This document shows, in pieces, positions 1-34,300 of a DNA stretch of 64,000 bases. The stretch lies in NCBI RefSeq assembly GCF_032854445.1, contig NC_088295.1, positions 91,131,805 through 91,195,804 on the forward strand. The letters are read 5' to 3'. Positions within the stretch are counted from its first letter, which is position 1. Each line of letters starts with the position of its first letter. A program made the translations under genes and the position numbers. The DNA is from Liolophura sinensis (taxonomy: Eukaryota > Mollusca > Polyplacophora > Chitonida > Chitonidae). The notes under the pieces are model-generated. The model saw only the letters and a program-made list of their open reading frames with translations. It ran no database searches and was not told the DNA's origin.

Positions 1-30
1 TTCGTCTTGTATAGGGCAAATGTTCTTTGG

Positions 31-237
31 TCAAGTTTTTGGATTGCTGTTCTCAGTATGTTGCCATCGGCACCAAGATAAGCAAAGTGGACAGGAGATT
101 CGTTTGTTTTCGTTCATTAGAGAACAACTGCATCTACGTGATAATCCTTGAGACATCTTTGTCTGCCTTACTGCTTTCAGGCAGTACGTGCACAATTTCT
201 TGTCCAAAAAGCGAATAGGCTGAGATCTGTTAAACAA
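31..237 (-). other. Small Cys-rich minus-strand ORF, duplicated; possible transposase end
   Basis: A 68-codon open frame with no ATG at its first codon. It carries closely spaced cysteines: C-x2-C, then 16 residues, C-x-C, 10 residues, C-x2-C-x3-C-x3-H, and stops 11 residues after the His. The same frame is open in the second copy (28785-28991) with a few substitutions. The spacing loosely recalls the cysteine-rich C-terminus of piggyBac-type transposases, but it does not match a canonical zinc finger and I see no catalytic domain. It may be a relic of a mobile element or chance. Confidence 0.25.
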
Positions 238-449
238 CGTTTTGGATGGAATGCTCTGGAATATTGGTGAAACCCTAAAAAATCTTCAAGTGATAGTTAG
301 AGGTTAATCACAAGCACCTTTGGATAAAACAGTCTTTGTTATGGGGAAAACGCTGCTGAGCTAGAAGTCATGTTGCACTTTTGAAATTTGCTTTTGAAAA
401 AAGCCCTGTTGTATGATGTCCACCGTTCGTTGTAGAATTTTCCTCGAAC

Positions 450-557
450 CTAATCTTCTTGCGATATCAAGGGTTCAGAGTCATCATCAAAACAATGAGA
501 GATGTCTAACTGCTCCATTTGGATTGTATTGCTTTCATCAACGAATGATATATCCAT
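450..557 (-). other. 35-residue acidic ORF conserved in both duplicates
   Basis: An ATG-initiated minus-strand frame of 35 codons ending in TAG. It is rich in Asp, Glu and Ser and contains a DDDSEP stretch. The same frame lies at 29204-29311 with only two residue changes and no indel. It is on the same strand as the Cys-rich ORF at 31-237 and upstream of it, so the two could be the ends of one decayed element. No function is assigned. Confidence 0.2.
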
Positions 558-1121
558 TAAGAAATAATTTGCTTTAGGGTCTATTCAGTTAATGCATTTG
601 TGGATGTATACAAGTATGCCCTTTGCATTTTAATGTAGTAGTTCAAAAGACTACATTTATGAAGTGGCAAAAAACTTATGTGATGACACTGTTCACAATA
701 TGGTCAGAAAGGCCACTCAAGTGTCCAGTGTTTTAAAAGCAATTTAGTAGGTTGTAAAAATTAGAAAAAAATTTATCTCGCTTAAAAAAGTATTTTGTCG
801 GACATACACTTTATAATGCTATTTTTTCTGTTTTGTTTAACTTTAAAGTAAACATTTACACTCTGCAAATAGTAATACGGGATAATTGAATCCCTAATCT
901 TAGTGTTTGGAGGAACTCTCAATTAAAGTTCTTGATGAAAGGTGAAGGAATCTTATCAAAGGTTTGCTCTCACATTGTAGTTTTCAGTCTTGTAGATTAC
1001 AGGTAAGGAAATGACACGAACGTTTACTTACCTGAGCAAATCAACCTTATCTCACCGTAATAATGGGTGTAAATAAAAGAAATACACAGCTAGACGTACA
1101 CTCTTTTGACAAACTGATATC

Positions 1122-1372
1122 AACCCAGCTGAAAAGTTTGTAATCCTTACATGTAAATGTACAACCCAGCTGAAAAGCTTGTAATCCTTACATGTAAATG
1201 TACAACCCATCTGAAAAATTTGTAATCCTTACATGTAAATGTACAACCCAGCTGAAAAGTCTGTAATCCTTACATGTAAATGTACAACCCAGCTGAAAAG
1301 TCTGTAATCCTTACATGTAAATGTACAACCCAGCTGAAAAGTTTGTAATCTTTACATGTAAATGTACAACTA
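1122..1372. repeat. 41-bp minisatellite, about 6 copies
   Basis: The unit contains ACCCAGCTGAAAAG and TACATGTAAATGTACA and recurs every 41 bp (for example 1161, 1202, 1243). In the second segmental copy the array has collapsed to about one unit that is split by a SINE (29861-30124). Confidence 0.9.
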
Positions 1373-1949
1373 CAGCTGAATATTCAGCTGGTTTCAGTGG
1401 TCTGTTTTCTGTCTCATACACGAGATTATCTACAGTTATGGTTGCAAGTTTTGCGTTATTCGGGTGTGATGAAATCCTGTGTTCCCAAAACAGCGATTAC
1501 AAATCATTTTGTCTTAACATAACGATTTTACCTTGTAAATGGAAATTGTTTGCAATAAACACAGTGATGCCTAGACAATGCAGACTTTCTGCACTAGATG
1601 TCAGCATGACTGATATAATGTGGACGAAAACAAAGAATGGACAAGGTAAAGCACTCAGTATTCCATCCCATAAGCGTCTGTATAACGTACGTATCCTAAA
1701 CTTAAAATATTGCAGCAAGAAAGAGTAAGACGAATGTCTGGGGGGAAAATTAATCGCAGGTTGCAGCAGATAAGTTCTCGTAACACGTCTCATTGTCAGA
1801 AATCGGTACAAAAGGAACTACGAATGATGCAAATATTCTTCGAAAATAGTGTGTTATAAACGCCATATCGTGCGTATTCCTTTTCCGAACACCCATTATC
1901 TTTTAGATCATTGAGAATCTCTCTAGAGAGAGAGAGGGAATTCCTGAGA

Positions 1950-2342: not shown

Positions 2343-5300
2343 GTAAGTGCTCAGTCCCTTCCTCATAAATCGTTCTTTGACATTCATTTATATATGTACA
2401 GGTAGCAATTCTGACGGTACTTCCTCACAAGACCATGTGTGCGGCGTTACTCTATATTTTGATTATGGTACGCATTGTAATGCTGGCTTTATTATGAATG
2501 GTGATGCTTATACGAGTGTTTCTTACTAAAATATATATGTATGTATGTACATGCATGTATGTATGTACTTATGTATACATGTTTGTATGTATTCTCGGGG
2601 TTTTACGTCCTACTTAAAAATGTTTCAATCATTAGGTTTGTCTGGCACCGTCATCAGTAAACAGTAGTATATGTGGTATATTTATCATTAAACAGCAGTA
2701 TATGTGGTATCGTCATTAGTAAACAGCAGTATACATGGTATCGTCATCAGTAAACAATAGTACATGTGGTATAGTTATCAGTAAACCGCAGTATAAAAGC
2801 AGTATATCTGTTACCGTCATTAGTAAACAGCAGTTAGCCTACATGTGGTATCGTCATCAGCAAAAGGTAGTATATGTGGTATCGTCATCAGTAAATAGCA
2901 GTATATGTGGTATCTTTATTAGTAAACAGCAGTATATCTGACAATTGTCATAAGTTAACAATAGTGCTATCTTTATCAGTATCAGTGCTTATCTTTATAA
3001 ATGCAGTATATCGATTACCGTCATTAGTAAACAGCAGTAAACCTACATGTGGTATCGTCATCAGCAAACGGTAGTATATGTGGTATCGTCATCAGTAAAT
3101 AGCAGTATATGTGATTTAGTCATCAGTAAACAGCAGTATGTGCGGCATCCTCATCAGTAAACAGCTCTTTATGTGGGGTTGTCATCATTAAACAGTAGTA
3201 TATGTGGTATCGTCAACAGTAAACAGCAGTTTATATGCTATCTTTATCAGTGAACAGTAGAACATGGGGTATAATCACTAGTAAACAGTAGTATATGTGG
3301 TATTGTCATCATTGAACAGTAGTATTTGTGGTATCGTCATCGGTGAACAGCAGTTTATGCTCTACCTTCACCAGTAAACAGCAGTATATCGGGTATAATC
3401 ATCAATGAACAGCAGGATATGTGGTATCGTTATTAGTAAACAGCAGGATATGTGGTATCGTCATCAGTAAACAGCAGTATATGTGGCATCGTCATCAGAA
3501 AACAGCAGTATATGTGGCATTGTCATCAGAAAACAGTAGTTTATGTGGTATCATCAGTAAGCAGGAATACATGTGGTATCTTAAACACTGTAGAAAGTCG
3601 TATTATGATTAATATTGTTTGAAATCTAGGTGAATTAAAAGCACAAGGTAAATTATTGTAGATTTTAAGGCCGTGTGAAATATAAAATAAATCTTAGCTT
3701 AAAGCAATGAGCTGAACATCTACGGGTGATAGAAAAAACAATAAATAAAACACATGGAGCGAAAAGCAAACTGCCGCGTACACAAAAACGTTCACGTGCG
3801 CTGATTAACATCACCACAACATTAAGAGCTTTTGCGAAAGTCAGAACATTATTTCAGCAGTTACATTAAATTCTTTTCATTTACTGCATTGATGGTTAAT
3901 AAATTATTATATTTTTTATTATTATTTTTTCTCCTCTACGCACTATTTTATTTAGCAAATTTGTTACTTTTTCACTCAGATAGTTTTACACCACAATAAT
4001 GAGGTAAAACTGCGAATGTATATGCGATGTACAATGCATTTAAGGCTCTGTATGTTTTTTTGTGTTTCTTGTATTATAAAATCTCTAATCTTAAACATCT
4101 CATTATTATTCATTTATTTGATTGGTATTTTGCGCCGTACTCAGGAATTTTACACTTATAAGACGGCGGCAACCATTATGGTGGGTGGGAATCGGGCAGA
4201 GCCCTCGGGAAACCCATGACCATCGGCAGGCTGCTTGCAGACCTTCCCTCGTACGGCCAGAGAGGAAGCCAGCATAAGCTAGACTTGAACTCACAGCGAC
4301 CGCATGGGTGAGAGGCTTCCGGTTCATTACGCTGCGCTGGGTCATTATTCAACTGAGCCACGGATCCCCCCCCCCCCTCGTTGTTATAGTAGGTGTATTC
4401 AAATTGGGGACATCTCATGAAGTTTGTGTGAAGGTTTTCGGCGTCACTTTAATTCATTATTGCTCTGATTCATGATTTGGTATGAAAAAAAAATGTTAGG
4501 GAGAAAAAACCGGAATTTTCAGTTGTACAGTTTGCCCATTTAGAGAAAAGTTTATCTGTACTTCTTTAAAAAGTTCTTCGGATCGCCTTTTCATGCTGTA
4601 CGTCTTTAATTACATTGTACTCCTGCACAAACCAGGATTCTGCGGGTGGAATAACCATCCCCGAGGCCTGGCCCCTTTGTACTGTTGTGATTGTATACTA
4701 ATGTGATTGTATGTTAAATGTGATGACAACCCAGCGTTTTGAATAATTCTAAACGAGTGACGTCTAATATATTGCAATTAACATCATTGCATAGTTTTAT
4801 ATACCTAATCCTGCTTAAGCCATGTTTCCGGGCAAGGAGAGGGGTTGTAATTTGCTACTTTTAAGTATTAAGATGAACAGTTAGAATAAAAGCCTAACCA
4901 TCATCAGTGTTCAGTGAATCAGGGAAAACTATTATAGGTATCTTAGTTGTACTTAGAATGCTCTGATCATATATGCCACCAAGAGTGTTATATTCATTGT
5001 AAATTTTGGTGAGAAGGCGTTTGATGTTTATACGCTATGTGTTACACCCCGGAGAATAAAAAAATTATCTTAACTCCGTAGCAAAAGACCGAGTTCAAAA
5101 GAACTCGGTATGCCGAACTCAAGAATATTTCACTTCTACAACGGCGGCCAGCCCTATGGTGGGAGGAAATCAGGCACAGCCCAGGGGAAATCCACGAAAA
5201 TCAGGTTGCTTGCAGACCTTCCCACGTACGTCCGAACGTTACGCTGCGCTACTTTAGTAAAGAATAACATGGTTCTAATCCACATGTTTAATACTTAGGA

Positions 5301-6920
5301 AGTACAAGTATATGGTTCTAATCCACATGTTTAATACTTAGGAAGTACAAGTATGTGGTTCTAATCCGCATGTTTAATACTTAGGAAGTACAAGTATATG
5401 GTTCTAATCCACATGTTTAATACTTAGGAAGTACAAGTATGTGGTTCTAATCCACATGTTTAATACTTAGAAAGTACAAGTATATGGTTCCACCCCATAT
5501 CACTCCAGTGACGACGTCATTGTTTTTTTACTACATGTAGTCAATGTGAGGTTATAATTTTGAATAGTTCGGTTCTTTTTATCTTCTTTTTCCAGGAAAC
5601 GGTTTTCGATGGTCTGAAGGTAAGCATCTTCCCTACTTAAAACATCTCCTTATTCATTATACACTTACTTACAACACCTCCTTAATCATTATACACTTAC
5701 TTACAACACCGCCTTGATCATTTTACACTTACCTACATCTCGTTAATACACCATACGGGAACTAGACTGATTACTGTTTACCAGTATTGAATATGCAGTA
5801 GTCCAATCAATGGTTTGTATGTATATATGCAATGGGACATTCATTTATGAGGGCAAAGGTAATCTAGTTAAGAAACGAAGGTAATTGATGGAAAAGTTCA
5901 ACTACTGAGTACAAAAAATCCACAAATGATGTATACAAGCTGTTCCAAACAATACCAAACTTAAAAACACAAATTTTTTTTCACCAAATATACACCAAAC
6001 AGCTTCGGATCCGAGCACATGGGCCGACGAGTTCAGGTTCTGTGGGGGCCTAAACCAGTCCCCTGTGGACATCTGTACAGACGATGTTGTGCCCAACCCC
6101 ACCCTGAATAACTTAGTCTACATCAACTTTGACAAAGAGACCAAGGAAGAGCTGACACTACTGAACACAGGCGAGCAAGGTACGTTCCCCGTTCAAGGAT
6201 GACGTGAAATTTTTCCCACTTTCCTTCAAAAGATTAGTTTTATAAAGACTGCAAACAAGGTGCCTGCCTATTTCGCTCAGCACTTGATGTTTTTTTTATG
6301 TGGAAAGTTCGAGCATGTACTGAGGCTTAGTAACACAATGAGGAAATTATTCTTGATCCGAAAAGTTGTCAAGTGACTTACAAGTACGCTAGGAGTAATG
6401 CTGCAATGTATAGTAAATACTTACATACAGCCTAACATAAAATGTTAATGCATTTTAACATTGCTAATTATTTAGTCAGACAAGTAATGTAAAGGTTGTG
6501 ATGCAAAACAACTGGCATCCAGTACATAAGATTCACACGCCAAAACTGTGTTACGTATTTCAGTTCAACTCAGAGGATTTAACAAGGCGCTGTCCATCAA
6601 AGAAGGCGGGTTACCAGCTAAACGTTATGTTCTAGAGCAACTCCACTTCCACGTAGGTGCCGAGGATGGTAGAGGCTCAGAACACGACGTCAACGGGGAA
6701 TTTTTTGAGGTTGAGGTAAAGTCTTACTTACAGTTTAATCAGGAGCATTGGGGATGGTTTTGTTAAATCCTACTCACACGCAGAGCGCACAGGAGGATTG
6801 GGTGAATTTCGTATGTATATTCAATACAGTGCTGGTGTAAATTCCAGGAAGTAACCTTTACAACCAGCTCTACACCACTTTCACTCAAAAAACATTTTCT
6901 GTCGGAACTGCTAAATGACC

Positions 6921-6971: not shown

Positions 6972-9115
6972 TCTCTCTCTCAGACCATACCGAACAAATT
7001 GATAAGCGTTATATCACAGTGCAAACACAAAGTCATCGGTGTATAGGCTGGATAACTCGAATATGTTAATACAGATAGATGGAATACAACATGATGTGCT
7101 CCAGCTAACGACGTCGACTATAACGTCTGGTTATCACGCATAAAACAACGTCTAAATGGAGGTCAGTTAAAGGTGCTTTTGGGAAAAAAATGACTTAGAA
7201 AGTCAGCAAGTGTTGTGATCTACGAACACTGGTATTAATTATGTTGTGAACCCACATCAGGCCTACGAAAATTCCAGATGCAGGTGCATACGGGTCCTTC
7301 AGTAATATAGGTAGTTTTCCGTGAGGTTACCCTTACGTATAGCGATTTACAGAATCAAAATTGTGCTGATTTCAGAGAAGTTTATGATTTTGTTACAGAT
7401 GCACCTGGTGTTTTATTCTACCGACTATGAGAGCTTTGATGCTGCCCAGAACAGGCCCCAAGGTTTAGCCGTTATTGCCGTCTTATTTGAGGTCAGTTTA
7501 CACGAAGTTCTGACGAATAAGATAAGTTTTGTCTGCACATTTATTAAGAACTTATTAGGAATATACCAAGTTCATATAACATTGTTTATCTTAATTCCAT
7601 CTTAAAGGAACGTTCACTGGACGAGACTGAGGTAGAAAATAAATGTATCTCGCATTCTTTAATATCAGAGATTGGAAATCAGTTTGATCAAAACCACTGG
7701 GCAGTTGGCCCATTCAGAGATGTTTAATTTTCTGAAATACTACTTAATCATTACCTTACCTTGCAGACATTTTAAATTGTCAGCATCTATATCTGTATCA
7801 TTCAATGTTTTGTGTAGGTCGGCGATGACGACAACGACGGTTTGGAGCCTATAATAAAGCAACTATGTAACATCCGAGAACCAGGTAATAATCAGACAAA
7901 ATGATGAATTCGATTGCTGAGAATATGTATTCTTAGTAGTCAGTTTATAGGCAATACGTTGACTTAATTGTTTTTGTTTCTGTGCATTTAATTAAATACT
8001 GAATAAGAACGTCGAGTCTGTTGATTTCCCTTAGTATAAGAAACACTTTTGGAAACATAATCGTACGTGTTTTAAATGCTCTGCGTTAGGTACCAATACT
8101 ACTATTGAACCGATCAAGGTCAGGAATCTACTGCCGGATGATATCAGCCGCTGGTACAGATATCGGGGCAGTCTAACCACCCCACCGTGTTTCCAGAGTG
8201 TCATATGGACCATCTACAAGGATCTGGCTAAGATATCAAAGGAACAGGTAAGCTGAAGTGTCATATGGACCATCTGCCAGTCCCTGGCTAAGATGTCAAA
8301 GAAACAAGTAAGGACCTGGCTAAGATATCAAACAACTAGGTTAGCTAGAGTGTCATCTGGACCATCTACATGGACCTGATCAAGTTATCAGAGGGACAGG
8401 TGCCATGGATATTATGCCAGGCGCGGGATGCGACTGGTTGGTAAGACGAGCCCCTGATGGCAAATACAGGCTGGGTACATGCCTGTTTAATTGTATTAGT
8501 TAGAACATGACACCAATGTGTCTGTACATTTATGTGAAGTTGTCTTGCTTGTCTCGTTTTCAGTTACGTACGTTTCGGAATAATGTGCTTTCGGAAGAAG
8601 GTGGACCTCTTGTTGATAATTTCCGGCCTACTCAGCCTTTGAACGGTCGCCTGATAGAAAAAAACACAAGAGACTGTTCCCCGGTACATTGTGAAGACAA
8701 CGGCTACGGGGATAACGGCAATGGGAAAAATGGTAATGGAAAGAACGGGAACAACGGGAACGGGAACAACGGGAACAACGGAAACGGAAGGGGATACGGA
8801 TATAACGGACGTGCTAGCTGTAAAGATCGGAAACGAAACGATGAAAACGAATGCTGGGATAACTCTGATTGTTATTGCGACCGAGACCGAAATGGCAATG
8901 GAAATGGTAATGGCAATGGCAATGGTAATGGCAACGGCAATGGAAACGGAAATGGCAACGGCAATGGTAATGACAACGGCAACGGCAATGGAAACGGAAA
9001 TGGCAACGGCAACGGCAACGGCAACGGAAATGGCAATGGAAATGGCAACGGTAATGGTAATGGCAACGGCAATGGAAATGGCAATGGCAATGGAAACGGA
9101 AATGGCCATAAATAA
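2279..9115 (+). CDS. Gene A: nacrein-like secreted alpha-carbonic anhydrase with C-terminal Asn-Gly repeat
   Basis: Eight exons (2279-2342, 5596-5619, 6003-6179, 6564-6715, 7399-7491, 7818-7884, 8090-8247, 8564-9115) join in frame to 428 residues; all introns are GT-AG. Alpha-carbonic anhydrases convert CO2 and water to bicarbonate and a proton using zinc. The zinc ligands are His116, His118 (LHFHVG) and His141 (MHLVFY). Glu128 in GSEH and Thr222 in SLTTPPC match Glu106 and Thr199 of the human CA II numbering. A Cys in FCGG and the PPC Cys are placed for the disulfide of secreted members. The signal peptide and the NG tail (residues 355-426) fit the shell-matrix nacrein family. The His64 position is Glu and the Trp after HFH is Val. 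Two adjacent ATGs start the frame; I chose the first. A paralogue, gene B, lies 22 kb downstream. Confidence 0.93.
2655..3590. repeat. 31-bp minisatellite in gene A intron 1
   Basis: About 30 imperfect units carrying CAGTAAACAGCAGTATATG and GGTATCGTCAT. Small ORFs here follow the repeat and are not genes. Gene B intron 1 has no such array. Confidence 0.88.
3600..4095. other. AT-rich intron sequence without recognised features
   Basis: Part of gene A intron 1. I see no exon, repeat or conserved motif. Confidence 0.6.
4100..4375 (-). mobile_element. SINE family 1, near full length, reverse orientation
   Basis: Read on the minus strand it begins with a tRNA-like head (GTGGCTCAG, then TGAGTTCAAGTCTAGC as B box). 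It continues through the shared body GGGAAGGTCTGC and CCACCATAATGG, and ends in ACCAATCAAATAAATGAATA. Other copies are at 29861, 50165 and 55705. It sits in gene A intron 1 next to a run of 12 or more C bases. Confidence 0.85.
4376..5118. other. Intron sequence without recognised features
   Basis: Gene A intron 1 between two SINE copies. No ORF, repeat or splice-like exon stands out. Confidence 0.55.
5119..5250 (-). mobile_element. SINE family 1 fragment, internally deleted
   Basis: The 3' half (GAATATTTCACTT to CTTCCCACGTACG in + orientation) joins directly to the head-proximal AACGTTACGCTGCGC, so the middle of the element is missing. Confidence 0.75.
5269..5489. repeat. 43-bp minisatellite, 5 copies
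   Basis: The unit contains GGTTCTAATCCACATGTTTA and GGAAGTACAAGTAT, at 5271, 5314 and every 43 bp after that. It starts at the broken edge of the SINE fragment. Confidence 0.92.
5596..5619 (+). CDS. Gene A exon 2: 24-nt micro-exon
   Basis: TTTTCCAG precedes it and GTAAGC follows. With the base carried from exon 1 it reads GNGFRWSE and keeps phase 1. Its length equals that of gene B exon 2, which reads GNSFDRSV, so the micro-exon is a shared structural feature. Confidence 0.85.
6003..6179 (+). CDS. Gene A exon 3: N-terminal carbonic anhydrase segment
   Basis: 177 nt between CCAAACAG and GTACGT. It encodes DPSTW, then [12 protein letters not shown], the family motif near the N-terminus of alpha-CAs including the disulfide Cys, and ends at NTGEQ. 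That last stretch aligns with NNGH of vertebrate enzymes, so the proton-shuttle His is replaced by Glu. Intron stops upstream hide this exon from simple ORF finding. Confidence 0.92.
6564..6715 (+). CDS. Gene A exon 4: first two zinc ligands
   Basis: 152 nt after ATTTCAG and before GTAAAG, ending at phase 0. It contains LEQLHFHVG with His116 and His118, and GSEHDVNG with the Glu that orients Thr222. Trp in the usual HFHWG is Val here, as in genes B and C. Confidence 0.93.
6923..6981. repeat. (TC)n microsatellite
   Basis: About 58 bp of CT dinucleotides with one interruption, in gene A intron 4. Confidence 0.95.
7399..7491 (+). CDS. Gene A exon 5: third zinc ligand
   Basis: 93 nt, phase 0 at both ends, encoding [13 protein letters not shown] through [13 protein letters not shown]. 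His141 is the third zinc ligand. The LAV segment corresponds to the hydrophobic CO2 pocket around Val143 of human CA II. Confidence 0.92.
7818..7884 (+). CDS. Gene A exon 6
   Basis: 67 nt after TGTGTAG. It encodes an acidic loop, VGDDDNDG, and the helix [11 protein letters not shown]. It ends one base into a Gly codon before GTAATA. Confidence 0.88.
8090..8247 (+). CDS. Gene A exon 7: Thr199-type active-site motif
   Basis: 158 nt after GCGTTAG and before GTAAGC. It contains [15 protein letters not shown], then [12 protein letters not shown] with the gate-keeper Thr222 and the second disulfide Cys226. This is the exon that is truncated in gene C. Confidence 0.92.
8564..9115 (+). CDS. Gene A exon 8: end of CA domain, linker and NG tail
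   Basis: After TTTTCAG the exon encodes LRTFRNN, then [11 protein letters not shown], the closing motif of alpha-CAs. A Cys- and Asp/Asn-rich linker follows (six Cys between about residues 287 and 353) and then 36 NG-type dipeptides ending HK-stop. The carbonic anhydrase domain is therefore complete before the repeat begins. Confidence 0.93.
8891..9106 (+). repeat. Coding NG minisatellite of gene A
   Basis: 216 bp encoding 36 Asn-Gly dipeptides, with one Gly replaced by Asp. Codons mix AAT/AAC with GGC/GGA/GGT in short phrases, so the tract evolves by duplication of multi-codon units rather than single codons. Minus-strand ORFs rich in Ala, Ile and Val here are antisense shadows. Confidence 0.95.
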
Positions 9116-9173: not shown

Positions 9174-9885
9174 CCTAACCGTCTTGCCTAACTGTTTCAC
9201 TATTGCTAGAATAATGAACGACTGGCACAAAGAACCAGCTGCTTGTACCTGAAAACAGCTTCCAATCGGATCTACTGTAATGTTGTGTTTCCACGGACAC
9301 GGGATTTCGTTTTCGATTACTCGTTAATTCTTCTAAGAAAGGGACACACACACACTACGCTGGAGTGCTTCCACGGAATCGGTGGGATTTTGTAACGCAC
9401 ACGTTAACGTAAAGGTAATAGAACTGGCGGCGTAGTAGAATCGCAGATACCAACGCATGGGGCGTGGAAAGCTGTAATTGAAGCGTAAAGTAATTGCATA
9501 AAGTAACACAATCCCAAACGCAGTCGCATGTCCGCGGAAACACAGTCTAAGATTTTTGGCACCAATTAAACAATTTTATGTATTTGAAAATAAAACATAA
9601 TTTCACACTGGTACTATCTTCTTCTTTGATCTATGTTACAGACTTGCACATTCAAGCTCAAGGAAAATAGGCATGCCATATGTACTCTTGGTAGTGCATG
9701 AATATACACCGTGTGTGCAGATTGCAAAAAGAAAAACAAAAGGAGAAAAGCACGCAACTGTAAGGTTACAAGGTTACACCTGACATTACTTGGGGACATA
9801 GAATCAATCCTGGGTCGTGTCACACCTAAGACCTTAAAAGAGGAACTGGTAACTTCTTCACTTGGCATTCGGCATGAAAGGGATA
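9174..9885. other. Intergenic sequence without recognised features
   Basis: Downstream of gene A. Short ORFs on both strands show no family motif. Confidence 0.5.
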
Positions 9886-10103
9886 GTGCAACGACTGGTA
9901 TATGGTATTAGTATAGTAGCTCGAGCGGGTTGGCTTACTTGCCTTCGGTAAGCCGTCTCAATGAAGCAGCACTAGATAAAAGAGCGGTAGAAATCCGTCC
10001 TGCAACAAGGAGGCACATTACATGCACTCTAAAAATTCCTTCGGTATCATATGACTGAAAAGTTGTTAAGTACGACGTTAAACCGAAGCACTCACTCACT
10101 CAC
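9886..10103 (+). mobile_element. SINE family 2, 3' part
   Basis: It ends in TTGTTAAGTACGACGTTAAA followed by a (CACT)n tail. The body (AAAGAGCGGTAGAAATCC, then CCTGCAACAAGGAGGCAC) differs from the neighbouring element, but the 3' end is shared with it, as expected for SINEs using one LINE partner. Confidence 0.6.
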
Positions 10104-10130
10104 TTACTTGGAAACTCTTCGGTGGCCTAA

Positions 10131-10482
10131 TGGTTTGAACGTTCGCCTCGAATTCGGGAGACTTGGGATGAAATCGGGCGTCGGGTCATACCAAAAACTT
10201 TAAAAAAGCACTTGTTGCTGTCTCCCTTAGCCTTCACCACTGAAACGTCCAAGGAAACAGAACTGGTTGATCCGGTATCAGCATAACGTCACTGGGTTGT
10301 GTGTCATTTCTGCTGTCTTCGACATGATACTTCAGTGGCGGCAAGACTTTGGGGACATGGACTCGTCCTACCACAAAGAGGCACAGTACATGTATATGTA
10401 CACACACCTTATGACTGCGTTTTCATATCAATGAAAATTTGTTAAGTGCGACATAAAACTTCAAGCATACATACATTATTTG
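10131..10482 (+). mobile_element. SINE family 2, full-length-like
   Basis: A tRNA-like head (GTGGCCTAATGGTTTGAACG) opens the element. The core contains GTATCAGCATAACGTCACTG and GACATGATACTTCAGTGGCG. The 3' end is TTGTTAAGTGCGACATAAAA. The reverse-oriented element at 31626-31826 shares this core. Confidence 0.7.
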
Positions 10483-11050
10483 GGTGAAGTTTAAACTGTA
10501 AAAACTCGTACTGTTTTACAGCATAAAGTGCTGGCAACATTGTGACCAGTAAATTTAACTGTATATTTCAGCGCCCCTTGTTCGCCTTGTCACTTTAGAT
10601 GTCAACTGCAAATTACCAGTAAAACCTAGTGAAAATGATCAGAGGTTCACAGCACATTTGAAAGCAAAAATATATTGGTTACAGATGAGGATTTGCAGTA
10701 TGCTTGTCTGCAATAATACAGTGCTTTATTATAAATGTATACTAAATATCATGCAAAGTTATATTAATTGCCACTGAAGAATTACGAGGTCTCTAGATGT
10801 AAAGTAAATCTATGCCTCGACATTTATAGATATTTATATTATAGTCGTCAACCAAGATGAACGTTGAAGGTGAATAAGCGTAAGGCCTATTCCCAAGGCA
10901 AGGTTTAAAACAAACTACCATAAGAACAAAGTATATAATGTACGAAAATAGGACGGAATTATGCAAACAGAAGCAGTTATCAGTTTTCATTGATGTTGGG
11001 AGAAGCAAGACATGTTCTAGTTGACTGAGTGAAATCAGTATTCAAATTAT
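10483..11050. other. Intergenic sequence without recognised features
   Basis: No gene or repeat seen; the minus-strand ORF at 10793-11008 has no recognisable motif. Confidence 0.5.
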
Positions 11051-15720: not shown

Positions 15721-15829
15721 AATGCGGAAAACAGTTGTAAATTGTTGCTCTATAATGTTGTAAATGTTTCCGTTCTGCATCGAAAATGTTATATCCAACA
15801 TTATGAAATCGTTTTGAGTACAGTTACCG

Positions 15830-17640: not shown

Positions 17641-17644
17641 CCTA

Positions 17645-22500: not shown

Positions 22501-25500
22501 TGTCCGATCCCAGAGTTGTATCGGTATCTATGTAACACTAGCATGACTTACAGCGCTATGTCAGCATTTATCTAACACCAGCGTTGTGTCAGTATCTGTC
22601 CGATTCCAGAGTTGTATCGGTATCTGTGTAACACTAGCATGACTTACAGCGTTGTGTCAGTATTTATTCAGCTCCAGCGTTGTGTCAGTATCTGTCCGAT
22701 CCCAGAGTTTTATCGGTATCTTTGTAACACTAGCATGATTTACAGCGTAATGTCAGTATTTATCTAGCAACAGCGTTGTGTCAGTATCTGTCCGATCCCA
22801 GAGTTGTATGGGTATCTATGTAACACTAGCATGACTTACAGCGCTATGTCAGTATTTATCTAGCAACAGCTTTGTGTCAGTATCTGTCCGATTCCAGAGT
22901 TGTATCGGTATCTATGTAACACTAGCATGACTTTCAGCGTAATGTCAGTATTTATCTAGCAACAGTGTTGTGTCAGTATCTGTCCGATCCCAGAGTTGTA
23001 TGGGTATCTCTGTAACAGTAGCATGACTTACAGCATTGTGTCAGTATTTGTCTAACACCAGCGTTGTGTCAGTATTTATCTAACACCAGCGTTGTGTCAG
23101 TATTCGTCCGATCCCAGAGTTGTATCGGTATCTATGTAACACTAGCATGACTTACTACGTTGTGTCAGTATTTATCTAACACCAGCGTTGTGTCAGTATT
23201 TATCTAACACCAGCGTTGTGTCAGTATTTATCTAACACCAGCTTTATATCAGTATTTGTCCGATCCCAGAGTTGTATCGGTATCTATGTAACACTAACAT
23301 GACTTACAGCGTTGTGTTAGTATTTACCCAAGACCAGCAATGTGTCAGTTTTTATCTAACACCAGCGTAGTGTGATTATTTGTCCGATCCCAGAGTTGTA
23401 TCGGTATCTATGTAACACTAGCATGACTTACAGCGGTTTTTCAGTATTTGTCCGATCCCTGAGTTGTATCGGTATCTATGTTACACTAGCATAACGTTGA
23501 GTCAGTATTTATCTAACACCAGCGTTATGTCAGTATTTATCTAACACCAGCGTTGTGTCAGTATTCATCTAAAACCAGCGTTGTGTCAGTTTTTATCTAA
23601 CACCAGCGTTATGTCAGTATTTGTTCGATCCCAGAGTTGTATCTGTATCTATGTAACACTAGCATGACTTACTGCGTTGTGTTAGTATTTATCTAACACC
23701 AGTGTTGTGTCAGTATTTATCTAACACCAGGGTTGTGTCAGTATTTGTCCGATCCCAGAGTTGTATCGGTATCTATGTTACACTAGCATGACTTACAGCG
23801 TTGTGTCAGTATTTATCTAACACCAGCGTTGTGTCAGTTTTTGTCTAACACCAGCGTTGTGTCAGTATTTGTCCGATCCCAGAGTTGTATCGGTATCTAT
23901 GTAACACTAGCATAGCTTAATGCGTTGTGTCAGTATTTATCTAACACCAGCGTTGTGTCAGCATCTGTCCGATCCCAGAGTTTGATCGGTATCTGTGTAA
24001 CACTAGCAAGACTTACAGCGTTGTGTCAGTATTTATCTTACACCAGCGTTGTGTCGGTATCTCTCCGATCCCAGAGTTTGATCGGTATCTATGTAACACT
24101 AGCATGACTTACTGCGTTGTGTCAGTATTTATCTAACACCAGCGTTGTGTCAGTATCTGTCCAATCCCAGAGTTGTATGGGTATGTATGTAACACTAGCA
24201 TGACTGACAGCGTTGTGTCAGTATTTATCTAACACCAGCGTTGTGTCAGTATCTGTCCGATCCCAGAGTTGTATGGGTATCTATGTAACACTGGCATGAC
24301 TTACAGCGTTGTGTCAGTATTTATCTAACACCAGCGTTGTGTCAGTATCTCTTCGATCCCAGAGTTTTATCGGTATCTGTGTAACACTAGCATGACCTAC
24401 AGCGTTGTGTCAGTATTTATCTAACACCAGCGTTGTGTCAGTATCTGTCCGATCCCAGAGTTGTATGGGTATCTATGTAACACTAGCATGACTGACAGCG
24501 TTGTGTCAGTATTTATCTAACACCAGCGATTTGTCAGTTTTTATCTAACACCAACGTTGTGTCATTATCTGTCCGATCCCAGAGTTTGATCGGTATATAT
24601 GTAACACTAGCATGACTTACAGCGTTGTTTCAGTATTTATCTAACACCAACGTTGTGTAAGTATTTATCTAAAACCAGCCTTATGTCAGTATTTGCCCGA
24701 TCCCAGAGTTTGATTGGTATCTATGTTACACTAGCATAACTTACAACGTTGTGTCAGTATTTATCTAACACCAGCGTGGTGTCAGTATTTATCTAACACC
24801 AGCGTTGTGTCAGTATTTATCTAACACCAGCGTTGTGTCAGTATTTATCTAAAACCAGCGTTGTGTCAGTATTTATCTAACACCAGCGTTATGTCAGTAT
24901 TTGTCCGATCCCAGAGTTGTATCGGTATCTATGTAACACCAGCATGACTTACAGCGTTTTGTTAGTATTTATCCAACACCAGCAATGTGTCAGTTTTTAT
25001 CTAACACCAGCGTAGTGAAATTATAAGTCCGAACCCAAAGTTATATCGGTATCTATTTAACACTAGCATGACTTACAGCGGTTTCTCAGTATTTGTCCGA
25101 TCCCTGAGTTGTATCGGTATCTATGTAACACTAGCATGACTTACAGCGTTGTGTCAGTATTTATCTAACACCAGCGTTGTGTCAGTATCTGTCCGATCCC
25201 AGAGTTGTATCGGTATCTATGTAACACTAGCATGACTTACAGCACTATGTCAGCATTTATCTAACACCAGCGTTGTGTCAGTATCTGTCCAATTGCGGAG
25301 TTGTATCGGTATCTATGTAACACTAGCATGACTTACAGCGTTGTGTCAGTATTTATTCAGCTCCAGCGTTGTGTCAGTATCTGTCCGATCCCAGAGTTTT
25401 ATCGGTATCTTTGTAACACTAGCATGATTTACAGCGTAATGTCAGTATTTGTCTAGCAACAGCGTTGTGTCAGTATCTGTCCGATCCCAGAGTTGTATGG

Positions 25501-26600
25501 GTATCTATGTAACACTAGCATGACTTACAGCATTGTGTCAGTATTTATCTAGCAACAGCGTTGTGTTAGTATCTGTCCGATTCCAGAGTTGTATCGGTAT
25601 CTATGTAACACTAGCATGACTTTCAGCGTAATGTCAGTATTTATCTAGCAACAGTGTTGTGTCAGTATCTGTCCGATCCCAGAGTTGTATGGGTATCTAT
25701 GTAACACTAGCATGATTTACATTGTTGTGTCAGTATTTATCTAACACCAGTGTTGTGTCAGTATTTGCCCGATCCCAGAGTTTTATCGGTATCTATGTAA
25801 CACTAGCATGACTTACAGGGCTATGTCAGCATTTATCTAACACCAGTGTTGTGTCAGTATTTGCCCGATCCCAGAGTTTTATCGGTATCTGTGTAACACT
25901 AGCATGACTTACAGCGTTGTGTCAGTATTTATCTAACACCAGCGTTGTGTCAGTATCTGTCCGATCCCAGAGTTGTATCGGTATCTATGTAACACTAGCA
26001 TGACTTACAGCGCTATGTCAGCATTTATCTAACACCAGCGTTGTGTCAGTATCTGTCCGATTGCGGAGTTGTATCGGTATCTATGTAACACTAGCATGAC
26101 TTACAGCATTGTGTCAGTATTTATTCAGCTCCAGCGTTGTGTCAGTATCTGTCCGATCCCAGAGTTTTATCGGTATCTTTGTAACACTAGCATGACTTAC
26201 AGCGTAATGTCAGTATTTATCTAGCAACAGCGTTGTGTCAGTATCTGTCCGATCCCAGAGTTGTATGGGTATGTATGTAACACTAGCATGACTAACAGCG
26301 CTATGTCAGTATTTATCTAGCAACAGCGTTGTGTCAGTATCTGTCCGATTCCAGAGTTGTATCGGTATCTATGTAACACTAGCATGACTTTCAGCGTAAT
26401 GTCAGTATTTATCTAGCAACAGTGTTGTGTCAGTATCTGTCCGATCCCAGAGTTGTATGGGTATCTATGTAACACTAGCATGACTTACATTGTTGTGTCA
26501 GTATTTATCTAACACCAGCGTTATGCCAGTATTTATCTAACACCAACGTTGTGTCAGTGTCTGTCAAATCCTGTTTGATCGGAATCTATGTAACACTAGC
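19540..26600. repeat. 7-kb complex satellite with higher-order copies
   Basis: Two related modules alternate: a 28-bp one (GTTGTGTCAGTATTTATC, then TAACACCAGC) and a 68-bp one that adds CCGATCCCAGAGTTGTATCG and CTATGTAACACTAGCATGAC. Order and private variants are copied over longer distances: about 640 bp (19.82 and 20.46 kb), 2689 bp (20.46-23.0 kb onto 23.15-25.7 kb) and about 770 bp near the right end. Identical 60-codon ORF shadows at 21236 and 23925 show the 2689-bp offset. Confidence 0.95.
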
Positions 26601-28754
26601 ATGACTTGCGCTCCTGGATTCTATACTTATCTGTCCAATATCTACAATCCAAGACTATATCTGTCACACAATGGGGCCCATTCTACCAAGCTGTCTCGAC
26701 GATGCCTCAAACGCACTTACCATGGCGACGTATCTTTTCACTGCATGCTGTCATGTTTACGGCTCAGTCCTAGAGCGGACCCCAGGTACCGTGTTTGTTT
26801 AACCGTGATGGGATCTAACGACATGATTACGGTATAGATCCAATGCCAACATGCTAAACGTACCATCAGACCGAATTCTAAGGGTTTTTCTGAGTTAGAA
26901 AGTTAACGTAACTAAGTGATTTTTCATCATTCCTCGGAAGGCATTAAACTGTTTTAGATAGGCATAGTCTTGATATGTGGTTGTAAGTCTGTAATGCGTC
27001 ATCAATCAAATGATCCATTACCGACACATTGTTTCAGAAAAAGAGTGAAAAGTGAAAAATTAGGGCTTACGTGTATGGATAAGAAATATGGAGATGGCAC
27101 TTACCATTGGATATATTCGTGTGTGTATGTTGCTATAGTCTAGTCCAGTTACAGAAATCAGGCTGTTGCCATGGTCGTCATGTTAACCATTTAATAAGTT
27201 ATGACGGCGCATGGATGCCGTCAGACAAAAGATGCATCTCCAAGTGCAAAGGCTTATACACAACATTTTGTCGTTTTTTAAAACAGATAAAAGTGCTGCA
27301 AATACTTTACAGAGAAAATTGCAGTAGGTCTACAGTTTTGTATTGCCATACAATAACTTGCAATTATTTCTTTACATCACGATAGTGTATAAGTTTGATT
27401 ACCGGCACTCTCTGCCTCTCTACAAAAACAGCCACAGTGACAAAGAACACAAGGATTTGCTGTTCTCTTCCAGCACAGTGTTTATGCAATCGCACTGAAA
27501 ATACAGACGGGTGGGAGACTAAAACTGCTAACTTACTAAAACTAAATTTTACTAAGTTGTGTATAGCGTTGATACAAAAACGCATATAAACGTATAAACG
27601 TCGTACCGTTGTGAGAATTCCCTTGTTCCTTTGCTCTCTCCGGTCGAAATTTGCAGTATTGTTGATGAAATAAAAACTTGGAAACTAGCAAGCATCGTTA
27701 CAGTAGAGCATCTGCAACATGATACTACTCTGTTGCAGTATCCTGTGTTTTTTCTTCTTTGCTTTATTTACTGCAGAATCACATTCACAGTTGATTTTTT
27801 AGTCCTTCTCAAAAATTTGACCTATAGAAATAATCCGCTGCGCATTATATACCTGTTATATTAGTCCATATTGGTGCCACTCAGGGTGACCAAATGTCCT
27901 TGCTATTTTTAAGTTCGTACATGTCTTTAGTGCATGTTTTGATAGGATAGCCCTAGCAGATTGGTAGCTTTTTCTGGTTTATGCCCCCTTTGATAAACAC
28001 AATTATTGTTCAATGTGCTAACTCATATATTTCCAACAGTCATACAATGACAGCGCTATTTGAAAGCCCAATCAACTCAGGACCAGAGTGTTAACCTTTA
28101 GGAATACTTACTTTACTAATTCAAGCTAATCTAATCTTTTCAAACATAATGGCAGATTTGCTGACGAAATGTGGCATCTTAGCCACACTGTTGGGGAGGG
28201 GTGGTGAGCTACATTGGCGAGAAGGATTGCGTCAGCAGTTTTCTATACCCCCCAAGCACCAATGAAAACAGCAAGACTTTTGACTATTTCTCACGGACTT
28301 TTACACTCTCAATTATCTGTCAGTGGTTGTCATGGATGTTTGATCAACATCTTGATCCTTAATTAAATGTCTTAATTGCATGGTGACTTGAATTACAGAA
28401 TCCTGGGTGTTCGCAATCATTGGTTTGTTGTCTGGTCGAGCTGTCTGCACACAGAAAATATCTATTCTCATCCGAAAAACGGGAAGGTGATTCATGCCAC
28501 TCACTCTGAAACATGATTGTATGTGAACGTTTTGACCTTGATGCTAAATCTGTTTGATTCACAAGGAGAACATTCCTCGTAAGAAGAAGTTTTCGTTGTA
28601 CGTTTTCATTAACTCCTACAGTGTATTTCTGTCCCCTCCACCCCTACTTCTGGAGGAATAAATGAATGATTATGGATTAACACAGCTATTTCTGTAGGAA
28701 GACTCCCGTTTGTATACAATCTAGAACTTCTAATGCAGGACTACAACAACGGGG
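26600..28754. other. Intergenic sequence without recognised genes
   Basis: Unique sequence between the satellite and the second segmental copy. A minus-strand open frame of about 90 codons around 28356-28630 is the longest; it is Ser- and Asn-rich, lacks an early ATG and matches no family I know. Confidence 0.45.
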
Positions 28755-28784
28755 TTCGCCTTGTATAGGGCAAATGTTCTTTGG

Positions 28785-28991
28785 TCAAGTTTTTGGATTG
28801 CTGTTCTCAGTAAGTTGCCATCTGCACCAAACTAAGCAAAGTGGACAAGAGATTCGTTTGTTTTTATTCATTAGAGAACAACTGCATCTACGTGATAATC
28901 CTTGAGACATCTTTGTCTGCCTTACTGCTTTTAGGTAGTATGCGCACAATTTCTTGTCCAAAAAGCGACTAGGCTGAGATCTATTAAACAA
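28785..28991 (-). other. Second copy of the Cys-rich minus-strand ORF
   Basis: 68 codons, uninterrupted, with the same cysteine spacing as 31-237 apart from one Cys-to-Tyr change in the C-x2-C pair and one lost later Ser. Retention of the frame may only reflect recent duplication. Confidence 0.25.
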
Positions 28992-29203
28992 CGTTTTGGA
29001 TGGAATGCTCTGGAATGTTGGTGAAACCCTAAAAAATCTTCAAGTGATAGTTAGAGGTTAATCTAAAGCACCTTTGGATAAAACAGTCTTTGTCATGGTG
29101 AAAATGCTACTGAGCTAGAAGTCATGTTGCATTTTTGAAATTTGCTTTTGAAAAAAGCCCTGTTGCCTGATGTCCACCGTTCGTTGTAGAATTTTCTTCG
29201 AAC

Positions 29204-29311
29204 CTAATCTTCTTGCGATATGAAGGGTTCAGAGTCATCATCAAAACAATGAATAATGTCTAACTGCTCCATTTGGATAGTATTGCTTTCATCAACGAAT
29301 GATATATCCAT
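29204..29311 (-). other. Second copy of the 35-residue acidic ORF
   Basis: Same start, length and stop as 450-557 with two substitutions (Ser to Ile, Leu to Phe). Confidence 0.2.
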
Positions 29312-29860
29312 TAAGAAATAATTTGCTTTAGGGTCTATTCAGTTAATGCATTTATGGATGTATACAAGTGTGTCTGTGTATTTTATTGTAGTAGTTTAAC
29401 AGACTACATTTATGAAGTGGCAAAAAAACTTATGTGATGACACTGTTCACAATATGGTCAGAAAGGCCACTCAAGTGTCCAGTGTTTTAAAAACAATTTA
29501 CAGGTTGTAAAAATTTGAAAAAAGTAATTTGTCGGACATTTGTCCAACTTTAAAGTAGACATTTACACTCTACAATAGTATTACTGAATAACTGAGTCCT
29601 TAATCTTAGTGCTACCATTTCTTGAGGGGAGGTGAACGAATCTTATCAAAGGTTTGCTCTCGCATTGTAGTTTTCAGACCTGTAGATAACAGGTAAGGAA
29701 ATGACACGAACGTTTACTTACCTGAGCGAATCAACCTGATCTCCCTATGGATATTATCCCTAATAATGGGTGTAAAGGAAGAAGTACACAGCTGGACATA
29801 TACTCTGTTGATAAACTGATATCAACCCAGCTGAAAAGCTTGTAATCCTTGCATTTAAAT

Positions 29861-30124
29861 GGGGGCCTCCATGGGTCAGTTAGATATCGCTAGCACAGCT
29901 AATGACCCAGAAGTCTCTCACCAATGCGGTAGCTGTGAGCTCAAGCCCAGCTCATGCTGGCTTCCTCTCCGGTCGTAAGTGGGAAGGTCTGCCAGCAACC
30001 TACGGATGGTCGTGGGTTTCCTCCGGGCTCTACCCGGTTTCCTCCCACCATAATGCTGGCCCCCGTCGTATAAATGAAATATTTCTGAGCACGGCGTAAA
30101 ACACCAATCAAATAAATAAATAAA
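29861..30124 (+). mobile_element. SINE family 1, full length
   Basis: It runs from GGGGGCCTCCATGGGTCAG to a (AAATA)n tail. It is inserted inside the remnant of the 41-bp minisatellite, whose sequence resumes at 30125 (AGTACATGTAAATGTACAAC). The allelic position in copy 1 is empty, so insertion followed the segmental duplication or occurred in one copy only. Confidence 0.9.
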
Positions 30125-31222
30125 AGTACATGTAAATGTACAACTACAGCTGAATATTCAGTTACTAGATGTACATGGAATATAGACAGAAATGTGGACT
30201 TAAATTTTCTTTGCTTCATAAACAATACAAACCACCCTTTGAAACTGGTCTTGTTATATTATCAACGGAGAGTCCACGATATCCAGACGTTGCTCCTGAT
30301 TTTTGTAATTTGAGTAGCGCCTCGTGCGTAAGGTGATTTTTCGTTTTATCAAAATGTGTGATAAAGCTACCATTGCAGAAAGGCTATCATGTCTTAATTT
30401 ACTTCACTGACTCTATAAACATGCTAGTACCATTTAGGTTTGGCCACCTAAGGTAGTACCAATCTCATATCTGGCTCATGGGCTATATGTGTTTACGCGG
30501 CTGGGTTACACGGGGATTTATTAATAATACGAGGCTTACATACGAAAACTGTTTTGTGTATCTGTTTGAATCTGAGGGCAGGTGTAATGCACGTGGTATG
30601 TTTGCTATTGAGAATGTGTCATGTTTTGGTGGTGTCAGCGGTCTGTTTTCTGTCTCATACACGAGATTATCTACAGTTATGATTGCAAGTTTGCGTTATT
30701 CTGGTGTGATGAAATACTGTGTTCCCAAAACAGCGATTACATATCGTTTCGTCTTAACATAACGATTTAATTCAGTGTATTGAAACTGTTTGCAATAAAC
30801 ACAGTGATGCCTAGACAATCTAGACAATGCCTAGACTTTCTGCACCAGATGTCAGCATGACTGATATAATAAGGACGAAAACAAAGAATGGACAAGGTAA
30901 AGCACTCAGTATTCCATCCCATAAACGTCTGTATGACGTATGTATCCTAAACTTAAAATATGGCAGCAAGAGAAAGTATAACGAATGCCTGAGGGAAAAT
31001 CAATCGCTGGTAACGGCAGATAAGATCTTGTAACAAGTCTCATTGTTCGAAATCAGTACAAAAGGAATAACGAGTGATGCAAATATTCTCCGAAAGTAGT
31101 GTTTGTTAAAAACGCCTTACCGTGCGTATTCCTATCACGTAAACCGTGATATCATAAATTTAGACTGTGTTATAAAAAGCTCAAAGCATGCTTGTTTTCG
31201 TAATACGAAATCTCTGGGTCTG

Positions 31223-31230
31223 TATAAAAG
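31223..31230 (+). promoter_or_regulatory. TATA box of gene B
   Basis: TATAAAAG 79 bp upstream of the next in-frame ATG pair. The block TCTCTGGGTCTGTATAAAAG is shared exactly with gene A, implying the same core promoter and probably similar expression. Confidence 0.8.
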
Positions 31231-31308
31231 TGGAGAGATTGGCGCTGTTCAATGGATATTGTGACCATCGGCGCGGAGACTCCCAGTGTTCTCCACATCT
31301 CTGACTTC

Positions 31309-31372
31309 ATGATGGTTGTTTTTCAGTTCCTGGCCCTGGCAAATCTTGTCGCTCTGTGTACGGCTGGAGCCG
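31309..31372 (+). CDS. Gene B exon 1: signal peptide
   Basis: 64 nt ending before GTAAGT in phase 1. It encodes the same 21 residues as gene A exon 1, with three silent differences. Confidence 0.92.
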
Positions 31373-34300
31373 GTAAGTGCAAAGCCCCTTCCTCATTAAT
31401 CGTTCCATGACATTCATACATACAGAGAGCAATTCTGACGGGAGGTACTTCCTCACAAGCCCATGTGTGCGACGTTTCTCTGTATTCATTCTGGAACGCA
31501 TTGTAATGCTGGCTTGAACATGAATGGTGATGTATGTACATATGTAGATATGTCTATGAATTCTCGAGGTTTTACGTCCTACTTAAAAATGTTTCAGTCA
31601 TTAGGTTTGTATTCCTTTACTGTGTCTTCTTGCGGCAGGGCGAGTCCATGCCACCACTGAAGTATCATGCAGAAGACACCAGATATGACAACCCATCTAG
31701 TCACATTATATTGACACCGGGCCAAACAGCCCTGTTTCCAAGCGAGGCAGAAACAAATGCCAATTTTAAAGTCTTTTATATGACTCTGCCCCGGTTTGAT
31801 CCCAGGCGAACGCTCTAACCACATACAGTACGGGAGGAATTTTATTGATTTACTATATCGGGCTTAAGGCTTAAGGCGGCCAGGCGTGTGAGTGGAGCTA
31901 ACATCGATTTAATTGTTACAATACCTCTTCATTTCTTATTGCCTCGATGGGTCATCAGGGAAGACTTATTTTGTATATAGATTACATATACAAGAACTTG
32001 TCTATCTTCTACAAGGCCTATATATCTTTTTATGGCTAGTGAAATTAAACATTTTGTTTTTTTCATTTTCAACAACTTGCGGATCCAGGCCTGAGCACAT
32101 ACGTGTTACCAATGGCCAATAACTACTGTACTAAAGGTTGATGCGCTCCGCAAAACGACATGTAACTAACTAATGGTATTTTATTGTCAATGTTTTGCAA
32201 ACACAATATGGAGAAAGATATTGAGCAATATGGCACCCAACAAGCTTAAACTTTCGTCCTTCAAAACCTCCACGCTCGCGACGCATCTTGTTAGGAGCGC
32301 AAAGTTCCCCACTTTAAGCTATGTATGTGCATGTGGCATACTTCAAGCTCTGCATTTGACCTGTCTGTCTGTTTATCATATTGTACAACATGGTCAGTAT
32401 ATGTTATTTGCTAATTACATCATTTTTTTCTTTCCAGGCAACTCATTTGACAGGAGCGTATGTAAGTCATATATTAAGACAGTGTACTTTCTGCTCTTAG
32501 TTACATGCAAGCTTTATATTTGTTCATACCAATGGAATATCGGTAATATTTTAACTGGTAAGGCCCACGCTATTGTTAATAACCATGAGGGAGAAGACAC
32601 ACAGGACGATTTTCAACAGTTACTTTAGAACATATATGAATTTACATTTTTCAACTGTACAAATACAATCCCAAATACCCCTGGCTAATTACCGGGGTCA
32701 AAAAACACTTCATGTTTTAGATAGAATTCGTTTTTCGTTCTTTGTGACATAGCGAGACATAGTCTACGTTAATCCGCAGCCACACGGTGTAATTTGTGGC
32801 AATGAACCCTTGAATTCGATATGGTTAACGAAAATAGAATGTATGTTCAAACGTTACAATTTGACAAGTGTCACGAATTATATGAACATTACGTTTCGCC
32901 TTGTTTTTCGACTATTCCATACCAAAAATCGCATACTGTGATAGAGGCTTCAATAACGTATTGTTCAGCTACATTTATTTATTTATTTGATTGGTGGAGA
33001 ATGAAGGAAAGAACAACCGGCTATTCAGCTTTGGTTTCAATCGCTTTAGACGTGCATGGTTTCTCTTGTGATACAAGTGTAGCCCGGAATAAACAACAAG
33101 CACCTTAACTTCGGCCCCAATCACTTTAGGCGGGCATGGCTTCTCTTGTGATACAAAAATAGGCAGGAATAAAAAAACAGGCACCTTAACTTTTGGCCCC
33201 AATCATTATAGGCTGGCATGGCTTCTCTCGTGATACAAGAGTAAGCCGGAATGAACAACAGACACCGCAACTTTGGCCCTGTCACTTTAGGCGGGCATAG
33301 CTTTTCTTGTAAATGAAGAGAAGGAAGAAAGAGAAACAATGCCCACCTAAAGTGACTCGTTCCAAAGCTGAGGAGCCTGTTGTTTGTTCCTACCTACTCT
33401 TGTTTTACACGAGAAGTCATGCCTGCCTAATTTGACAAGGGCCAAAACTAGGCGGGCATGGCTTATTTTGTGATACACGAGCAGGTAGGAAAAAACAACA
33501 GGCGCCTCAGCTTTGGCCCCAATCACGTTAGACTGGCATGGTTTCTCTTGTGATACAAGATTAGACAGGAGTGAACAACAGGCACCTCAGCTTTGGCCCC
33601 AGTTACTTTAGGAGAGCGTGGTTTCCCATGTCAACTCGAAGGTTCACAATCATGTATTCTTATGTACAGCACTGTATACCTTAGCAGTACAGGTGTGTAT
33701 GTGGACTCAACTCTCTTTAATTATACTCTAGTCGATGACCCATCAAAATGGCCACCCAGGTTCTGCGCAGGTCTAAACCAGTCCCCTGTGGACATCTGTA
33801 CTGACGATGTGATACCTAACCCCACCCTTGGTAACATCGTCTACACCAACATAAACAAGAAGTCTTGTACACCGCTGACCTTGATCAACTTCGAAGGAGA
33901 ACAAGGTAGGACTCCTGCTTGTCATCATAACACCCGTCCTTGTTGTTATACTTTACCGATTCCTTCGCTGAGATGAAGATGATCTGAAATCTTACTATAG
34001 CTTTATAATTTGCTAACTGAAGTATTCCGCATTCTATCATTACATACCTCAGAATATCTGATATTCTTTCAGGTGTTAATTTGGCACTGTGTGGTGTACT
34101 ATGTGATACTAGAACAATGTGTTTCTCCTCTCTTAAGAGCTACACTGGGCGCTTATAATTATGCCCAGTCACCAGTATGCCAGCCCATAAGAGCCAATCA
34201 CGGGACAAAACGGGCGAATAACGTCACTCGATTGGCTGGGTTAGGCTGGCGACACTCGGTGTTTCTTCATAACTATAAGCGCCCAGTATCGTCATCTTTT

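Follow-up and report, generated by a model that had tools for sequence, protein, structure and literature searches.

We analyzed a 64,000-nucleotide stretch of the genome of the polyplacophoran mollusk Liolophura sinensis (RefSeq assembly GCF_032854445.1, contig NC_088295.1, positions 91,131,805 to 91,195,804 of the forward strand), which is hereafter called the window and numbered from its first letter. The window is eukaryotic in character, with intron-bearing genes, a G+C content of 39.8%, and many tandem repeats. It carries two open genes, designated here as A and B, which are neighbors in the window and whose products, judged by sequence, resemble the secreted α-carbonic anhydrases of shell building, secretion being predicted. 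A first-pass annotation of the window had claimed that the promoter and signal exon of these genes are nearly identical while their enzyme bodies are diverged. In this study we compared the 5′ ends and the bodies of A and B and weighed the histories that could have made them differ in age.

Both genes lie on the plus strand and have an identical plan of eight exons. In gene A, the signal-peptide exon (exon 1, 2279–2342) ends in phase 1 and precedes exons 2–8 (5596–5619, 6003–6179, 6564–6715, 7399–7491, 7818–7884, 8090–8247, and 8564–9115, including the stop codon), which encode a carbonic anhydrase domain and an asparagine–glycine (NG) tail. In gene B, the signal-peptide exon (31309–31372) likewise ends in phase 1, and exons 2–8 are at 32438–32461, 33732–33905, 34669–34820, 37923–38015, 38328–38394, 39273–39430, and 40120–40647 (including the stop codon); exon 2 of this gene was located by reading the sequence directly. 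The internal junctions of both genes show AG/GT, the phases agree exon by exon, and the frames are open to the stop codon, giving proteins of 428 (A) and 419 (B) residues. The first 23 residues are common to the two proteins: 22 come from the signal exon and its join, and the next is Asn. The signal peptide, which is predicted in that it was called from a hydrophobic stretch, is followed in both proteins by a full α-carbonic anhydrase domain, a charged linker that contains Cys, and an extended run of Asn-Gly.

Full-length matches to PF00194 were obtained for A (E 7.9e-81) and B (E 4.1e-76), both spanning profile positions 2–253 of 254, and the top-scoring solved chain for the gene A protein is carbonic anhydrase 14 (E 3.4e-53). 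The zinc-ligand motifs QLHFHVG and MHLVFY/MHVVFY are kept in A and B, those of gene A aligning to QLHLHWG and ELHIVHY of 4lu3, and their histidines are presumably the three zinc-binding histidines. The usual proton-shuttle histidine, which we take to be His64, is replaced by Glu: both A and B have GEQ where the aligned chain (aligned for A only) has GHT. This histidine is not present in every active α-carbonic anhydrase. As for the Gly-Asn or Gly-X-Asn repeat of nacrein-type proteins, A and B both have a long NG run at the C terminus. The sequence TATAAAA occurs on the plus strand at 2175–2181 in gene A, 104 bp upstream of ATG, and at 31223–31229 in gene B, 86 bp upstream of ATG, and on this basis the DNA upstream of the two start codons is presumed to contain their promoters.

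Divergence of the 5′ block and the enzyme bodies

The 5′ block of gene A (plus strand, 1–2641) comprises the upstream region, the presumed promoter, exon 1, and the first 299 bp of intron 1, and it is collinear with positions 28755–31610 (plus strand) of gene B. The left limit of the A copy is the window edge, and the block may extend further upstream. Before sites were counted, we left out A 1161–1393 (a minisatellite, with a repeat insertion and extra sequence in B), 1894–2107 (mostly present in A only), and 2515–2589 (a simple repeat). In the six stretches counted, 174 of 1960 noncoding sites differ, with the divergence ranging from 5 to 15% by stretch. Exon 1 shows three differences in 64 bp, all of them silent (synonymous divergence, dS, 0.21). 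About five replacement changes would be expected at the local rate and none is found (chance 0.004), which suggests that selection acts on the signal peptide itself. The proportion of changed fourfold sites in exon 1 (3/14) differs from that in the body (p 0.02).

The two copies of the block also differ in larger features. An (AT)33 tract is found in the A block, and a 41-bp minisatellite is expanded in A (1121–1380, plus strand), with approximately one unit at the corresponding place in B. A dispersed repeat is present in the B block only (29861–30123, plus strand); its best other copies are at 55705–55959 (same strand, 88%) and 4106–4371 (other strand, 81%). Approximately 470 bp at 30161–30630 are likewise found in the B block only and match nothing else in the window at E 1e-5, representing either an insertion in B or a deletion in A.

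The bodies, compared over 264 codons of the enzyme exons that run from exon 2 to where the tail begins, are far more diverged: the proteins have 161 identical residues here, with a dS of 1.53 (bootstrap 1.03–3.24), and 36 of the 63 fourfold sites are changed. Taken one by one, exons 2–7 give dS values from 0.59 to saturation, single exons being short and their ranges wide; exon 4 has 29 identical residues among 50 aligned. No same-strand match between A and B was found in introns 2–6 at E 0.01, and intron 7 has short matches at its start (27 and 58 columns), at the site of an old tandem copy of the exon 7 end. Past 2641/31610, the best A/B alignment of intron 1 is at chance level (E 0.15), and for the stretch after the repeat at the block edge a score as good is reached by 143 of 200 shuffles. 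The difference counts of block and body (Fisher p about 9e-21) reject the even divergence that one tandem duplication would leave. The age step between the 5′ block and the bodies is real and large; judging from the changed sites in the block against the changed fourfold sites in the bodies, and from the unmatched introns, the block would be roughly ten times younger.

Most of what the first-pass annotation had read from this region holds. It had counted three silent differences in exon 1 and 29 of 51 residues shared in exon 4, had noted that introns beyond about 2640/31610 do not align, which is the case for intron 1 and for five of introns 2–7, and had named a sharp drop within intron 1 as a supporting sign, which is seen. 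The close match of the two copies survives as collinearity and "nearly identical" was too strong a term for it; of the limits given for the block, the right edge stands and the left limit of the first copy is merely that of the window.

Two side observations concern the bodies. The end of exon 7 and its splice donor are tandemly repeated into intron 7 (A 8197–8400, with a trace of the same copy at B 39431–39484), and read-through of the exon 7 donor leads to an early stop in both genes, so that a protein lacking the NG tail might conceivably exist. Within intron 4 of gene B (35006–36790), a long array of 72-bp tandem units at 35045–36692 remains open in multiple frames of both strands, one of which spans 594 codons; the array is intronic and probably not coding.

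Right edge, internal step, and remainder of the window

The right edge of the block falls inside a dispersed repeat, to which the last 50–60 bp of the block belong. In intron 1 of gene B, this repeat (31550–31804) is continuous across 31610, whereas intron 1 of gene A holds a truncated copy (2584–2641), of which 2584–2632 were aligned to a reference copy and the part up to 2641 was assigned via the match with B. The reference, a third copy that lies between A and B and is a longer form of the repeat, is on the plus strand at 10164–10476, and both intron 1 copies are on the minus strand relative to it. The remainder of the repeat was not found in intron 1 of gene A: the scores were 16 (forward) and 18 (reverse) against a shuffle mean of 17.3, and 145 of 200 shuffles were as good or better, while the third copy scores 81.5. 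A 31-bp minisatellite (2649–3552, plus strand) begins in A at 8 bp past the right edge. Read from these sequences, B is the undisturbed arrangement at the right edge, and A probably holds the join, given that the repeat runs through this point in B and breaks off in A. It appears more likely that A received the block with the join inside the repeat than that it lost the rest of the repeat when the minisatellite arose, and B would then be the donor. Recombination between two whole copies of the repeat is unlikely because its right part was not found in A.

A second step lies within the block. A change-point search over 2024 aligned columns with 177 differences, exon 1 included, placed the best change point at A 738, with 38 of 737 columns differing before it and 139 of 1287 after it; this step was equalled by 1 of 2000 site shuffles and by 1 of 2000 ten-column block shuffles. 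When the six stretches were realigned singly, the contrast persisted in both substitutions (38/737 versus 137/1224, p 4e-6) and gap openings (2 versus 15, p 0.04), and the rates among the remaining stretches past A 738 were not significantly different (p 0.21). The distal stretch (A 1–738, corresponding to B 28755–29492, both on the plus strand) is the slowest long stretch of the block and also the farthest from the presumed promoter and the TATA box, a position that speaks for a second, later exchange rather than for promoter constraint. The pattern suggests that these 738 bp are younger still owing to a second event; another kind of constraint may act on them. A minus-strand open frame of 84 codons at A 34–285 is common to both blocks. 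Per site, replacement differences in this frame are fewer than silent ones (8/200 versus 6/52, p 0.045). This is the best result among six frames tested, and no Pfam match was obtained for the A version; we consider the evidence too weak to attribute the slowness of the distal stretch to coding.

A third carbonic anhydrase copy, C, is located at approximately 50589–53380 and is broken: exon 3 is split over two frames, an in-frame stop interrupts exon 5, exon 7 is truncated, and exon 8 terminates ahead of any NG tail. No 5′ block for this gene was found in the window. In exon 4, C has 27 of 49 residues in common with A and 27 with B (A and B share 29), and in exon 5 the numbers are 17 (A) and 14 (B) of 32 (A and B share 19). 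Being broken and without a 5′ block, gene C is of little use as an outgroup.

Further signal exons were sought by a simple scan for ATG, a hydrophobic stretch, and a phase-1 donor, which recovered both known exons 1 as controls. The scan gave no candidate in B intron 1 between the block and exon 2, in 26650–28754 upstream of the B block, or in 46600–50560 before gene C; two candidates (starts 14112 and 14139) were found in 9200–19500. Between A and B, a tandem repeat of approximately 7 kb occupies 19600–26600, and other large arrays are at 11050–11777, 14183–14986, 15904–16781, 41675–42988, 43503–46586, 47829–48882, and 53973–55007.

Possible origins of the 5′ block

The explanation that we favor, at somewhat better than even odds (about 0.55), is a late copying of the promoter and signal exon of one gene onto the other, followed by local conversion. 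It starts from the age step, the open gene models with matching phases, the repeat that is continuous in B and cut in A, and the step at A 738, all of which are observed. A and B would be old tandem paralogs whose bodies had already diverged far before the 5′ event. At least 2.6 kb, extending from upstream DNA through the promoter and signal exon into the beginning of intron 1, would have been copied between the genes, most likely from B to A, with the join placed in intron 1 within the old dispersed repeat. Since intron 1 has the same phase in the two genes, the copied signal exon would splice in frame onto the resident enzyme body. The route could have been a direct partial duplication, or a whole-gene duplication and then a deletion that fused two introns 1. 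One or more later gene-conversion events, between copies approximately 29 kb apart, would have refreshed the distal part (A 1–738). The direction and mechanism of copying, like the function of the promoter and a shared expression of the genes, are what we infer from these observations.

The main rival, which we hold to be tenable and clearly less probable, is recurrent interlocus gene conversion at the 5′ ends from the time of the tandem duplication onward, which would have homogenized the promoter and signal exon but not the bodies. In animals that lack PRDM9, recombination hotspots can lie at promoters, and conversion would then be focused at this position. Such a history would account for the same position of the block in both genes, for the lack of a left-over signal exon in B in our simple scan, and for the two-step divergence inside the block, as expected of nested tracts. 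Its later events would nevertheless need surviving homology, and the intron 1 alignment past the block is no better than chance; nor would it predict an edge within a repeat that is cut in A only, and a proximal divergence of about 11% (137/1224), large indels, and a repeat inserted only in B are unlike steady refreshing. By the same reasoning, a late conversion would find little homology from which to initiate between paralogs whose noncoding DNA is saturated, unless earlier conversion had maintained the similarity of their 5′ ends throughout. A single late copying needs no history of continuous conversion and would explain both the abrupt edge and the cut repeat; we also count for it the negative scans of B intron 1 and 26650–28754, and the published parallel of a shared block ending at a repeat in Schistosoma japonicum (PMC3434034). 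The first-pass annotation had offered re-duplication of the 5′ block or gene conversion as alternatives. Its picture of a younger 5′ block on older paralogs is upheld, and each of the two mechanisms has evidence on its side: the placement of the right edge within a repeat that B has in continuous form and A in truncated form favors a copying event, and the younger stretch 1–738 favors at least one later conversion.

Two other explanations were weighed. The block could be as old as the bodies and look young through purifying selection on a long regulatory region, a view in keeping with the slow sequence around the TATA box (A 2108–2200, 4 of 93 sites) and with the constrained signal peptide. 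With 57% of the fourfold sites in the bodies changed, simple arithmetic would require approximately 84% of the counted block to be frozen, including stretches beside minisatellites and insertions, and the long stretch with the lowest rate is also the most distant from the TATA box; we regard this explanation as very improbable. Hardly more credible is an assembly error, in which a haplotype copy or a false join at a minisatellite put a second 5′ end before a gene. The right edge in A does lie beside the 31-bp minisatellite, and the window is rich in tandem repeats (121 TRF arrays, overlapping ones counted apart), but the 9% divergence together with the B-only repeat insertion and the (AT)33 tract in A was judged too much for alleles, and both genes have open frames and an exon 1 in phase.

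Several points weigh against late copying onto A. Intron 1 of gene A contains weak signal-exon candidates with four overlapping starts (4016–4124); they run into a dispersed repeat at 4106, and their donor fits only 5 of 7 positions. Older paralogous sequence flanks the young tract on its right side, while the left side and the left breakpoint lie beyond the window, and the block may represent the end of a far more extensive duplication. At the right breakpoint, the adjacent minisatellite allows a deletion, and the cut repeat in A could stem from one that occurred when this minisatellite arose. The step at A 738 requires a second event or local constraint. Finally, direction and order rest on two copies of the block plus one other copy of the repeat, the third gene copy being without a block.

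Whatever its route, the locus clearly combines a presumed regulatory and secretion part with a much older enzyme, in a type of protein linked to shell building. Trees or dates based on promoter or signal-peptide sequence can be misleading in families of this kind. More speculatively, and in our estimate unlikely, the 5′ ends could be a lasting exchange point, at which promoter and signal exon are repeatedly copied between paralogs, selection for shared expression maintains their similarity, and enzyme and tail diverge freely; regulation and enzyme would then evolve on separate clocks within one gene pair. Should relatives show repeated exchange, this would be a simple way for shell-protein paralogs to stay co-expressed while their products diverge.

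Comparison with known systems

The kind of event seen here is already known, and the present example was not found reported: among the matches listed, titles and the beginnings of abstracts gave no report of this gene pair or of 5′ exchange in shell-matrix genes, in a search that left subscription journals mostly outside. By their descriptions, A and B are like nacrein/N66 of Pinctada and the nacrein of Turbo marmoratus, in which a secreted α-carbonic anhydrase is combined with a repeat of Gly-Asn type (PMC3374290, PMC6599672, PMC3439604, PMC7747718, PMC6003135); Gly-Asn repeats are described for T. marmoratus nacrein (PMC6003135, PMC3439604). In Pinctada fucata, nacrein-like genes adjoin nacrein (PMC4759782), and nacrein also has an upstream TATAAAA box (PMC3439604). 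On the position of the repeat in nacrein the sources disagree, one setting it between two parts of the carbonic anhydrase (PMC3374290) and another at the C terminus (PMC6599672), whereas the repeat of A and B follows one complete carbonic anhydrase domain. Close in plan to A and B is a Lottia protein, in which a single domain precedes a G/N-bearing region (PMC3374290).

With regard to the mode of change, Drosophila cuticle protein genes are comparable in that they form arrays encoding secreted extracellular-matrix proteins and are homogenized unevenly along the gene; there, the exon 2 part with the chitin-binding consensus is consistently homogenized, while A and B are young at the 5′ end only (PMC2793513). 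Partial or chimeric gene duplication likewise copies part of a gene and joins it to other sequence, giving paralogs of mixed origin, but the recipient body in A/B is itself an old paralog of the donor, and the product keeps the gene plan (PMC3449122). The nearest precedent found is the S. japonicum gene family noted above, in which several genes share a block with core promoter and signal sequence, homology ends at the same point at a 3′ repeat (Perere), and recombination at the DNA level was proposed (PMC3434034). The block of that family is dispersed over 34 contigs in 18 scaffolds and belongs to genes without known homologs, whereas A and B are tandem copies in which the shared block stands on old homologous bodies (PMC3434034).

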